Position numbers and translations under genes: made by a program
Assembly: GCA_017462915.1 (NCBI GenBank)
Contig: JAFTQG010000009.1
Span: forward strand, 1 to 50,775
From: Prevotella sp.
Lineage (GTDB): Bacteria; Bacteroidota; Bacteroidia; Bacteroidales; Bacteroidaceae
Reading direction: 5' to 3'
DNA: 50,775 nt
Shown here: positions 5,558 to 37,007 of the stretch, one piece after another
How positions within the stretch are numbered: position 1 is the stretch's first letter
Layout of the letters: the number at the start of each line of letters is the position of its first letter
The notes under the pieces: generated by a model
Seen by the model: only the letters and a program-made list of their open reading frames with translations
Told to the model about the DNA's origin: nothing
Database searches by the model: none

Positions 5558-5618
5558 AATGGGTTCTATAAAATCACATGAATAATATTGATATGAAAGG
5601 TGATTTATAGAACCCATT
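5558..5618 (+). terminator. Long inverted repeat downstream of the C1 peptidase
   Basis: Left arm 5558-5577 (AATGGGTTCTATAAAATCAC) pairs with right arm 5600-5618 (GTGATTTATAGAACCCATT), with one bulged A and a 22-nt loop. It sits 36 nt after the stop and probably ends the transcript. There is only a short T-run after it, so rho-independent function is uncertain. Confidence 0.6.
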
Positions 5619-5657: not shown

Positions 5658-5723
5658 GTATAATGCGTTAATTCTTGGCGTATAATGTATAATTCCTCCG
5701 CATACAATGCGTTCGAGGAGCGT
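5658..5723 (+). repeat. Three 22-bp AT-rich units in phase with the GGTCACC array
   Basis: Units start at 5658, 5680 and 5702. The first ten to twelve bases are related (GTATAATGCGTT, GTATAATGTATA, ATACAATGCGTT) and the remainder of each unit differs. The 22-bp register runs without a break into the four GGTSACC units that begin at 5724. Confidence 0.7.
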
Positions 5724-5811
5724 TAGGGTGACCTTTTATATCTCAAAAGGTCACCTTATAGGTGGCAAAAGGTCACCGTTTACCATTTAAAAGGTCACCT
5801 TCAGCATCGCC
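5724..5811 (+). repeat. 22-bp-phased GGTCACC array, copy 1 (upstream of recJ)
   Basis: Four units at 5724, 5746, 5768 and 5790. The cores are GGTGACC (5727), then GGTCACC (5749, 5771, 5793), each exactly 22 bp from the last and mostly preceded by AAA. The 12 nt between cores are unrelated. Core 1 is the reverse complement of the others, so GGTGACCTTTT (5727-5737) can pair perfectly with AAAAGGTCACC (5745-5755). The array ends 48 bp before the recJ ATG. Related arrays are at 16493 and 32592. Confidence 0.85.
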
Positions 5812-5859
5812 TGTAAATATGTGACAGATTTGGAATCAACAAAAGAAAAGGACATACAC

Positions 5860-7581
5860 ATGCACTTCAAATGGAAAAATACTCCGACCTCAGAGGCAGA
5901 GGAAAGTGCAGCACAGACATTGGCTTCGAAGCTCAATATCGCTCCTGTGCTCGCTCGACTCCTACTGAGGCGTGGCATAACCACTGAATCGGCAGCAAAA
6001 CGTTTCTTCCGTCCGCAACTGACGGACCTCATCAATCCATTCCTCATGAAGGATATGGACCTCGCGGTTGACCGCCTCAATGATGCCATTGGCCGCAAGG
6101 AGCGCATCCTGGTTTACGGAGACTATGATGTAGACGGCTGTACAGCCGTGGCTTTGGTCTATAAGTTTCTGAAACAGTTCTATTCCAATATAGACTACTA
6201 CATACCCGATCGCTATGATGAAGGGTACGGTGTATCACGGAAAGGTGTTGACTATGCGAAAGAGACAGGTGTGTCCTTGATAATTATTCTCGACTGCGGC
6301 ATAAAGGCCGTCGACGAGATTGCGTATGCAAAGGAAAAAGGAATTGACTTCATTATCTGCGACCATCATGTGCCGGACGAGAAGATGCCGCCGGCTGTAG
6401 CGATACTCAACCCGAAACGTCCGGATGACAGTTATCCTTTCAAGCACCTTTGCGGCTGTGGCGTAGGATTCAAGTTCATGCAAGGCTTTGCCCGCAACAA
6501 TGGCATACCGTTCTCACAGCTGCAGCCACTGCTTGACCTGTGCGCTGTAAGCATAGCGGCAGACCTTGTGCCTGTAGAAGGCGAGAACCGAATACTTGCA
6601 TATCACGGCTTGCGCCAGCTGAACCAGTCTCCGTCTACAGGTCTGAAAGCCATTATAGAGGTCTGCGGTTTATTGGGCAGGCCTATCACGATGTCTGAGA
6701 TAATCTTCAAGATAGGACCGCGCATAAATGCCAGTGGACGCATGGAGAACGGGAAAAAGAGCGTTGACCTTCTTGTCGAGAAGGACTATGCTACAGCAAT
6801 TCAGGTCTCTGAGCACATCAACGAGTATAATGAGCAACGCAAGGATATAGACAAGCAGATGACAGAGGAGGCCAATAATATCGTAGCGCGTCTGGATACA
6901 CAACGGCATCATACATCAATCGTCATTTATGATGAGAATTGGAAAAAGGGGATTGTCGGCATAGTTGCTTCACGCCTTACAGAACTTTATTTCCGCCCGA
7001 CGGTAGTCATTACCCGTGACGGTGATGTTGCTACGGGATCAGCACGCAGTGTGGCTGGATTCGATGTGTATGCCGCAATAAAGTCATGCCGTGATCTCTT
7101 GTTGAATTTTGGAGGACATACGTATGCCTGCGGACTGACAATGAAATGGGAGAATGTCAAGGAATTCCAGCGTCGTTTCCAGAAATACGTGGATTTCCAT
7201 ATCATGCCGGAACAGACGGAGCCTATATTGGAGATAGACGCCTATCTTGAATTCCGTGACATAACAAAGAAACTGCATTCTGATTTGAAGAAATTCGCAC
7301 CGTTTGGGCCTAAGAATCCCAAGCCGCTTTTTGTGACCGAAGATGTCTATGACTTCGGCACATCGAAGGTTGTGGGACGCCAGCAGGAGCATATCAAGTT
7401 GGAACTTGTCGACTCTAAGTCAAATAATGTCATGAACGGCATAGCATTCGGACAGTCTGGAGCTGCCAGATACATCAAGTCACGCCGTTCTTTTGATATA
7501 GCTTATACCATAGAGGACAATGTCTATCGCCACGGCGCGCCACAGCTCCAGATAGAGGATATACATACAGTCAACGATTGA
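5860..7581 (+). CDS. recJ: Single-stranded-DNA exonuclease RecJ
   Basis: 5'-3' single-strand DNA exonuclease of the DHH phosphoesterase family, acting in recombination and repair. Metal-binding motifs are in order: VYGDYDVDG (Asp88, Asp90), ILDCG, CDHH (168-170), and DHHA1-type GPRINASGRM and GGHTYACGL. A C-terminal OB-like region follows. The 573 residues match the family. I chose the ATG at 5860 (MHFKWKN), the usual RecJ opening in this group, over the upstream GTG at 5821. recQ begins 7 nt after the stop; RecQ unwinds DNA for RecJ to resect, so the pairing makes functional sense. Confidence 0.95.
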   Translation: MHFKWKNTPTSEAEESAAQTLASKLNIAPVLARLLLRRGITTESAAKRFFRPQLTDLINPFLMKDMDLAVDRLNDAIGRKERILVYGDYDVDGCTAVALVYKFLKQFYSNIDYYIPDRYDEGYGVSRKGVDYAKETGVSLIIILDCGIKAVDEIAYAKEKGIDFIICDHHVPDEKMPPAVAILNPKRPDDSYPFKHLCGCGVGFKFMQGFARNNGIPFSQLQPLLDLCAVSIAADLVPVEGENRILAYHGLRQLNQSPSTGLKAIIEVCGLLGRPITMSEIIFKIGPRINASGRMENGKKSVDLLVEKDYATAIQVSEHINEYNEQRKDIDKQMTEEANNIVARLDTQRHHTSIVIYDENWKKGIVGIVASRLTELYFRPTVVITRDGDVATGSARSVAGFDVYAAIKSCRDLLLNFGGHTYACGLTMKWENVKEFQRRFQKYVDFHIMPEQTEPILEIDAYLEFRDITKKLHSDLKKFAPFGPKNPKPLFVTEDVYDFGTSKVVGRQQEHIKLELVDSKSNNVMNGIAFGQSGAARYIKSRRSFDIAYTIEDNVYRHGAPQLQIEDIHTVND

Positions 7582-16389: not shown

Positions 16390-16492
16390 GATGTTGTTCG
16401 ATTTAAGTGTTATACTATAATATTCCTTTTGGGACACTTTGTAATTACCTGTGTATCAAATGGCTGTCTTGTTGTGACTTCTCCTGCTTGCA

Positions 16493-16580
16493 GAGGGTGG
16501 CCTTTTGCGTGGTAAAGGGTCACCTTCTGGCATATAAAGGGTCACCCTATACAAGGCAGACCGTCACCTTTGGATATAAG
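16493..16580 (+). repeat. 22-bp-phased GGTCACC array, copy 2 (upstream of bcp)
   Basis: Cores at 16496 (GGTGGCC), 16518 (GGTCACC), 16540 (GGTCACC) and 16562 (CGTCACC), spaced exactly 22 bp, with unrelated sequence between. As in copies 1 and 3 the first core is the one with central G, so it can pair (with G-T wobbles) with the second. Relative to bcp, which reads leftward, the orientation is reversed. Confidence 0.85.
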
Positions 16581-32444: not shown

Positions 32445-32591
32445 TATTGTATCCACTTTGCGGGTGAAGGCTCATCCACTGTTGTAGTGCGGTGACAATG
32501 AGTATCTTACATGAGATGGAATACAAGGAACAGCATAATCCCATGTGACGATGCAGACGAATTTGCATACCGGATATTGAAACTTATCATA

Positions 32592-32679
32592 AAAGGTGAC
32601 CTTTTGCACAACGGAAGGTCACCTTTCACGGGACAAAGCGTAACCTTTTAGATGCCGGAAGGTCACCTTTCATAATGTG
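32592..32679 (+). repeat. 22-bp-phased GGTCACC array, copy 3 (upstream of the PIF1-like helicase)
   Basis: Cores at 32595 (GGTGACC), 32617 (GGTCACC), 32639 (CGTAACC) and 32661 (GGTCACC), exactly 22 bp apart. AAAGGTGACCTT (32592-32603) pairs perfectly with AAGGTCACCTTT (32615-32626). The array ends 48 bp before the chosen helicase ATG, the same distance as copy 1 to recJ. Nothing else is seen in 32445-32591. Confidence 0.85.
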
Positions 32680-36530: not shown

Positions 36531-37007
36531 ATGTCAAAATACACTCTTGATGCTCTGGATAAGAAGATTATCCGCATGATAAGCAATGATGCACGCATAC
36601 CGTTTCTCGAAGTGGCACGTGCGTGCAATGTCAGTGGCGCCGCCATACATCAGCGTATACAGAAGCTGCAGAGTCTCGGTATTGTAAAAGGGTCGCAATT
36701 CATCATAGACCCGGAGAAGATCGGGTATGAGACCTGTGCCTATGTCGGGTTGTACCTGAAATCCCCTGAACGCTTTGACAATGTAGTAGAGGAACTGAAG
36801 AAGATTCCTGAAGTCGTGGAATGCCATTACACGACAGGCGGCATGGACATGTTCATCAAGCTCTATGCGAAGAACAATCACCACCTCCTCAGCATAATAC
36901 ATGACAAGCTGCAGCCGCTGGGCCTCTCCCGTTCCGAAACCATCATCTCGTTCAATGCTGCCATATCACGCCCTCTCTATATTGCCGACATTAACGAGGA
37001 GGATTGA
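36531..37007 (+). CDS. Lrp/AsnC-family transcription regulator
   Basis: A 158-residue feast/famine regulator: an N-terminal winged helix (LDALDKKIIRMISNDARIPFLEVARACNVSGAAIHQRIQKL, about 6-46) and a C-terminal RAM/ACT-like domain (ETCAYVGLYL, ECHYTTGGMDMFIKLY). The GGMDMF loop is the usual effector and oligomer contact. It follows exbD by 6 nt, so it is probably co-transcribed, though its targets need not be local. Confidence 0.92.
   Translation: MSKYTLDALDKKIIRMISNDARIPFLEVARACNVSGAAIHQRIQKLQSLGIVKGSQFIIDPEKIGYETCAYVGLYLKSPERFDNVVEELKKIPEVVECHYTTGGMDMFIKLYAKNNHHLLSIIHDKLQPLGLSRSETIISFNAAISRPLYIADINEED

Follow-up and report, generated by a model that had tools for sequence, protein, structure and literature searches.

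Short palindromic units repeated at exactly 22 bp form more than 100 arrays in the genome of a Prevotella sp. (G000, the genome of the window analysed here; 2.93 Mb in 59 contigs), and two properties of these arrays are the main findings beyond the original prediction: their even chromosomal spacing, observed in two genomes, and their species dialects, as many congeners keep the 22-bp geometry (19 + 3 bp) with a core of their own. Four units are the usual number, the cores are conserved, facing half-sites of neighbouring units do not covary, and in a second genome (G016) the arrays are missing from prophage-like islands. From the sequence we infer that the arrays are probably platforms of a sequence-specific oligomeric protein that organizes the chromosome, its wrapping of DNA and loop function included.

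Arrays in the window

The window, the whole stretch of 50,775 nucleotides, contains three arrays, none with an assigned strand. Array 1 (5721..5805) consists of four palindromic units of 19 bp, with centres at 5730, 5752, 5774 and 5796, whose GGTSACC cores start at 5727, 5749, 5771 and 5793, a step of exactly 22 bp. Downstream of it lies recJ (5860..7581, plus strand; DHH, DHHA1 and RecJ OB domains), with its ATG at 5860 in frame with the open reading frame listed from 5821, ~55 bp beyond the end of the array. A GGTSACC pair at the array spacing has five matches in the window versus 0 in each of 100 shuffles. In the whole of G000, GGTSACC pairs with spacers of 3–33 bp number 129, and the spacer is exactly 15 bp in 127 of them (55 G..C, 25 C..G and 47 the same by middle base); the exact phasing predicted upstream of recJ is thus confirmed, and the genome-wide check proposed with it found spacings other than 15 near zero. 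The prediction had also counted three independent loci, and the other two are real arrays, each with four units and imperfect cores. Array 2 (16490..16574) is centred at 16499, 16521, 16543 and 16565, with cores starting at 16496, 16518, 16540 and 16562 when the imperfect first and last are admitted, and a sister genome has an orthologous array (L133). Array 3 (32589..32673), flanked by genes for a penicillin-binding protein and a PIF1-like helicase, is centred at 32598, 32620, 32642 and 32664, with core starts, imperfect cores again admitted, at 32595, 32617, 32639 and 32661, the third core being CGTAACC.

A second unit type, RTAYAATG, had been described beside array 1. Its three copies are present and in phase (5658, 5680 and 5702; 5658..5709, plus strand), but it is not general: a phased 8-mer with six identical columns occurs in one of the 202 array flanks tested, the recJ locus itself, and RTAYAATG is therefore a local peculiarity. 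Following the end of the upstream peptidase gene, a long, terminator-like inverted repeat occupies window positions 5560-5616 (TGGGTTCTATAAAATCAC ... GTGATTTATAGAACCCA).

Unit anatomy in G000

The unit is a 19-bp palindrome (approximately GYRAAAGGTSACCTTTYRC) followed by three free bases, with the consequence that AT-rich tracts return at intervals of about 11 bp; across ~90 bp of the array, an 11-bp alternation of AT-rich with GC-rich steps is seen. Some consensus is found at ~19 of the 22 positions, so the earlier statement that only the first 8–12 nt of each unit are conserved understated the extent. The free bases and flanks are unrelated among array copies. The strict pattern AAAAGGTCACC has 113 copies in G000 versus 2 for the reversed control. 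Stretches around the arrays were drawn from two lists that named 100 of 110 and 100 of 113 matches, with 100 of 105 planned stretches taken. Among the 101 arrays with two or more units (single-unit matches, of which the first 80 stretches and the window gave 17 single chains, are counted separately), 75 have four units, 10 have three, 10 have two and 6 have more than four. Beyond the four units, the core T-N-A recurs in 41 of 150 cases at +-22 bp and in 28 of 150 at +-44 bp versus ~9 expected, with 15 of 150 at +-66 bp; from the excess one and two steps out, the array is a symmetric stretch of up to 8 phased positions. The 60 bp around G000 arrays showed nothing conserved beyond these weak outer units.

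The same genome also has phased repeats of another kind. These are degenerate tandem repeats phased at 8 bp, many of them built on AACC / GGTT, and they occur at 56 places in 821 kb of G000 DNA (e.g., L145:5009 and L153:4089).

Even chromosomal spacing

Strict matches in G000 form 108 groups, 21 of which rest on single AAAAGGTCACC matches, and give 72 spacings, the lengths of two contigs being guessed. No spacing is below 6.9 kb where 24% would be expected below 5 kb, and the coefficient of variation (CV) is 0.66 versus 0.97 for random placement, an evenness reached in 0 of 2000 random sets. Reading several of the gaps revealed 13 further arrays that the strict search had missed, with lag-22 scores of 28-89; scores at other lags were at most 13.5, except for 29.7 and 26.4 at lag 21. 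In six contigs, picked because their larger gaps had been read (the window in full, the others in part), 40 spacings have a median of 14.7 kb, a CV of 0.34 and a minimum of 8.2 kb, and this evenness was matched in 0 of 10,000 random placements.

A similar regularity is seen in G016, for which 400 kb were searched de novo for 22-bp periodicity and the result refined by a matrix. This yielded 36 discrete arrays, two low-complexity detections (294880 and 326187) having been excluded. Outside three array-free islands, 33 spacings have a median of 8.4 kb and a CV of 0.28, where random choice among intergenic slots gives 0.64-0.76 and reached the observed value in 0 of 4000 trials; with the islands kept, the CV is 0.66 (P = 0.006). 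Random spacing has a CV of ~0.9 versus ~0.3 for the arrays of the six G000 contigs and of G016. Two of the islands, at 1-33 kb and 117-160 kb of contig C1 (L327-L328 and L333-L334), both carry a phrog_310 transposase and are presumably Mu-like prophages; the second has a terminase and tail proteins, with host genes at its end, and the other has a weak tail match. The third island has low GC (0.363) and 21 ORFs on one strand. Elsewhere on the same contig, positions 644078-644195 hold a longer array of at least 6 units.

In a third genome, G367, the minimum spacing is 7.7 kb (P = 0.0007), with a CV of 1.04 including one 112-kb gap and 0.44 without it, the test being based on 18 of the 22 lag-22 detections. 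Beside this gap of the main type, at C1 225124 and 238635, are 22-bp arrays of another palindrome (approximately ACCAAATTCACTGAATTTGGT), both among the four detections set aside, which may belong to another dialect and would then fit the lattice. As arrays occur every 8-16 kb along chromosomal DNA, their role is likely chromosome-scale.

Species dialects

Of the 398 genomes searched in the genus, 7 have the G000 unit itself, G000 included. A looser pattern, which keeps the AAAG..CTTT flanks but leaves the core free, is found in 78 of the 398 and reaches 518 pairs in a single genome, so that relatives do carry arrays, many with other cores, which had been named as a check on the prediction. The reversed control (TTTC..GAAA) gives at most 3 pairs per genome except in G326 (17), G347 (9), G355 (5), G360 (139) and G377 (9); given these counts, G347, G360 and G377 prove little, and G326 and G355, with 17 and 5 for the control and 0 for the pattern itself, perhaps have another dialect. 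The cores include GCGGCTC/GAGCCGC (G100), GGGCAYC types (G395, G148, G162 and G364), GGTTATC (G010) and GCTATGC (G266 and G285). In G016 the unit is approximately GYAATWTGANKCARATTRC with three free bases, and the genome is negative for the G000 unit and the looser pattern apart from one chance-like pair; the outer GY..RC is common to the units of G000 and G016. The G016 core pair has matches in 12 of 150 genomes, counting G016 itself, and seven of the 12 have a single copy. G367 has mainly GTTSAAC cores, or GTGSCAC mixed with GGGGAAC, and several of its arrays share flanking segments (e.g., CGTATATTTATACG). Among the matches listed, arrays in bins labelled Bacteroides consist of three to five GTCGAG-GGTSACC-CTCGAC units, with GC-rich flanks and no A-tracts. 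No lag-22 array of this type stood out in 1-20 kb samples of 14 genomes from other families, and none was found in samples of up to 20 kb from the congeners G009, G217, G045 and G058, suggesting that the system may not be universal; the same sampling gave one candidate in G183 and one near-identical tandem repeat in G040.

An unlikely alternative is that the arrays are strong sites for DNA gyrase (or another topoisomerase), serving as a counterpart of BIME-2 with one site per supercoil domain and phased AT/GC tracts that guide wrapping. The alternation at 11 bp over ~90 bp, with weak units on both sides, and the even 8-16 kb spacing both favour it, the former through its likeness to the E. coli gyrase motif, which one study describes as symmetric, 130 bp long and periodic in GC content at 10.75 bp (PMC6379681). 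However, a conserved enzyme would not be expected to use a fixed 7-bp core that varies from one congener to another, the arrays have no counterpart of the unphased central cleavage segment of the gyrase motif, and in the Bacteroides-labelled bins the flanks are GC-rich and lack A-tracts.

Conservation and genome context

Conservation of the proposed binding platform can be followed between G000 and a sister genome, G076, which is 100% identical to Prevotella sp. SC0317_S2_2 over the 2.5 kb compared. In 14 array pairs (one further sister pair, L031/L148, with three units, being set aside), core positions +-1 to 3 are identical in 326 of 336 cases (97%), a figure inflated by the finding of most sister loci through exact triple cores, and the less affected AT tracts and outer positions in 303 of 336 and 268 of 336; the middle base is identical in 48 of 56, the free bases in 123 of 168 (73%) and the flanks in 999 of 1344 (74%).

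The arrays lie between genes: in the 400 kb of G016, 36 of 36 are intergenic (60 bp tolerance). In G000 they occupy tandem, divergent and convergent gaps roughly as in the background, by a count that took ORFs of at least 90 aa by length only and in which an ORF of this kind overlapped 19 of the 75 arrays; a promoter-only or terminator-only role can be dismissed on this ground. Six scanned neighbours of arrays (recJ, the genes of a C1-like peptidase, a PIF1-like helicase, a penicillin-binding protein and a DUF5715 protein, and one family-less ORF) and seven further ones, including a class I tRNA synthetase, RecQ, a malate/lactate dehydrogenase and a polysaccharide export protein, are functionally unrelated.

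Array positions are only partly kept between distant species, and a conserved neighbourhood as a rule is accordingly rejected. In G141 the two genes that flank window array 3 likewise have an array between them (L034), G160 has one between the same genes as in L175, and in G141 (L029) and in G100 (L257), the latter with a quite different core, an array stands beside the same gene on the same side. Across 12 non-sister array loci with a matching gene, position matched in 4, roughly in 1 (L247) and not in 7, a count biased by the centring of the stretches on arrays. Ortholog rows, which include some gene pairs twice, were array-adjacent in both genomes in 5 cases for G016-G367 (4 unique, all on the same side), with 3 adjacent in one and 15 in neither; for G000-G016 the figures were 6 (5 unique; 4 on the same side, 2 on the other), 18 and 13, and for G000-G367 they were 0 of 39, 18 and 21.

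Such partial turnover of position between distant species would also be produced by the remains of a mobile element with target immunity, whose copies avoid neighbours and hence become evenly spaced. The exclusion zone that accompanies the even spacing, the intergenic location, the indel breakpoints between sister species that abut an array edge at two places (L073:2510 / L141:4065 and L059:7318 / L161:3992) and the flanking segments shared by several G367 arrays are compatible with this origin, which is nonetheless quite improbable, as core sequence is retained even though the free bases diverge as fast as the flanks, some arrays hold their place across species with different cores, and conserved sequence ends with the weak outer units of G000 arrays. 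Viral contigs gave 0 matches to the G000 dialect and plasmids 0 to the recJ array, by which mobile carriers are rejected. At the first of the two breakpoints, the L073 flank has no match in G000. Separately, a ~200-bp MITE-like repeat with the ends AGTAAGTCAC...GTGACTTACT is present in G000 (L155:4141-4350 and 23 other full or partial matches), is an insertion relative to the sister genome (L109 3884/3886) and is sometimes near arrays.

Search for a putative reader protein

If the arrays are binding platforms, there must exist a protein that reads the central 7-9 bp at several hundred sites. The Lrp/AsnC family forms octamers of four dimers, which four palindromes 22 bp apart would suit, and phased palindromes about two turns apart in fours, as in the operators of this family, are what the arrays present. 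The family (PF01037) is found by profile in 24 of 24 genomes, with two members in G000, one of them encoded in the window (36531-37007). In the two groups compared, A and B (a third, absent from G000, stood outside the comparison), the recognition helix is VSRAAIHQRVQ in all 17 readable group-A proteins across different cores, and VSGAAIHQR[IV]Q in 19 of 20 group-B proteins and in the one from the window, again unchanged across cores. Constant helices do not explain the dialects, and Lrp/AsnC is therefore rejected as the dialect reader. The RHH_1 profile gave nothing above the cut-off in 8 genomes (two weak matches fell below it) and is likewise rejected.

These helices also bear on the possibility that the arrays are operators of a global transcription factor, such as an Lrp/AsnC octamer, which would control ~100 genes. 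The fit of four palindromes to four dimers and the end of array 1 so shortly (~55 bp) before the recJ ATG would favour such a regulon; however, convergent gaps are used too, the scanned neighbours share no function, even spacing is not expected of a regulon, and in neither Lrp group does the recognition helix follow the change of dialect, which together make it very doubtful.

DNA sites or RNA elements

The original prediction offered two readings of the arrays, mutually exclusive RNA hairpins or identical sites that face the same side of the DNA and are bound cooperatively by a protein, and is partly supported overall, the second option fitting the data and the first not. Pairing of neighbouring units, whether in RNA or as cruciforms, should make their facing half-sites covary; as they do not, the arrays look like DNA sites rather than RNA switches: over 288 neighbour pairs in G000, the variable positions have z from about -2 to +2.4 with inconsistent sign (the values at k = 10 and 11 carry no meaning, because these positions have bases in common). 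In these facing half-sites, C-A mismatches and G-U pairs have similar frequencies, indicating that strand preference is absent. The two halves within one G000 unit tend to compensate, with z of -2.6 to -2.9 at k = 3, 6, 7 and 9, although not at k = 4 and 8; a weak half joined to a strong half is the pattern expected of dimer sites, and together with the conserved core it agrees with side-by-side binding. The corresponding test in G016 is confounded, since two dyads, 11 bp apart, were open to every array.

In G367, covariation is seen between the two halves of a unit at k = 1 (z 4.0), and neighbouring cores pair mildly at k = +-1 (z 2.1 and 2.6). Exact neighbour cores, in a test without the array at 286689, are inverted in 15 of 65 cases (7.2 expected) and direct in 16 of 65 (7.8 expected), an equal enrichment that results from likeness among the units of one array.

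Pairing of adjacent units within the transcript, to form alternative hairpins or tandem bidirectional terminators, is consequently a poor prospect. In its favour, units 1-2 of the recJ array form an 11-bp inverted repeat, as predicted for cores 1 and 2, and the region (5718-5812) can fold as RNA with z = -6.5; the ten G100 neighbour pairs listed of 21 are all inverted and non-palindromic GCGGCTC / GAGCCGC, one with a mismatch; and there is the mild pairing in G367. Against these stand the 288 pairs without covariation or strand preference, the use of tandem, divergent and convergent gaps at about the background rate, the direct core repeats of G334, G294 and G266, the G367 inverted cores that are no commoner than direct ones, and a window without any Rfam match. 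A hairpin or riboswitch is rejected on the same evidence, as are intrinsic terminators, since divergent gaps are also used and there is no pairing constraint.

Comparison with known systems

Among the literature matches listed, with most subscription papers and all of bioRxiv outside their scope, no such arrays were found. In iterons of plasmid origins, repeats about two helical turns apart are bound side by side by one protein; those serve one origin per replicon, whereas the arrays have palindromic units at more than 100 chromosomal loci. The matS, parS, SlmA and Noc sites are single, are confined to one region or unevenly spread, and are stable between related species; what they have in common with the arrays is palindromic sites, one protein, a spread along the chromosome and a chromosome-scale role, inferred in the present case. 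REP / BIME-2 elements of enterobacteria are intergenic, palindromic, and present in many copies and small clusters. BIME-2 is enriched in gyrase cleavage sites (PMC6379681). The arrays are likewise intergenic palindromic repeats in clusters, but they differ by the fixed 22-bp phase, the approximately four units, the unrelated free bases, the even spacing and the dialects, and they lack the hairpin that compensatory changes keep in REP/BIME, by which this identity is rejected.

Another short tandem intergenic unit is BrickBuilt, a minisatellite/MITE of Porphyromonas gingivalis with 23 nt tandem units, always intergenic, which are spacer-less and form part of a MITE that has a leader, a tail and inverted ends and occurs 19 times in one strain; the abstract of its description (PMC4596501) mentions no even spacing. 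A-tract phased curved DNA, for which a link to DNA-bridging nucleoid proteins has been proposed, has helix-phased AT tracts as the arrays do, but it is a statistical genome signal (PMC3940949), and it lacks discrete four-unit arrays with a specific core. The arrays are not MITEs, which share sequence from end to end and have terminal inverted repeats, in that free bases and flanks are unrelated in G000, although several G367 flanks are shared. A CRISPR array is dismissed because, for all their fixed 22-bp period, the units are degenerate (19 bp, with 3 free bases) and come in groups of about four at more than 100 loci.

A proposed platform for chromosome organization

In the binding platform favoured here, each array would present four palindromic sites, or up to 8 with the weak outer ones, exactly two helical turns apart, and an oligomeric protein would bind them side by side, wrapping or coating ~90-180 bp. 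The arrays may then anchor, bridge or topologically bound loops of ~10 kb, and protein and sites would co-evolve, giving rise to the species dialects. More tentatively, the arrays could be a chromosomal ruler, an undescribed nucleoprotein system of Prevotella, and perhaps of further Bacteroidales. A rapidly evolving protein that wraps DNA would sit on four-site platforms at nearly constant distances of 8-16 kb, depending on the species, and would thereby partition native DNA, prophages excepted, into regular loops or topological domains.

In model species, domain boundaries are described as mostly variable, and to our knowledge it is an open question whether bacteria have sequence-encoded, regularly spaced ones. 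If the arrays are boundaries, they would be readable from sequence at base resolution, countable, movable and deletable. The dialects would be a natural experiment in how a protein with several hundred sites shifts its specificity, and the absence of arrays from the G016 prophage regions hints at a mark by which self may be told from non-self on the chromosome.
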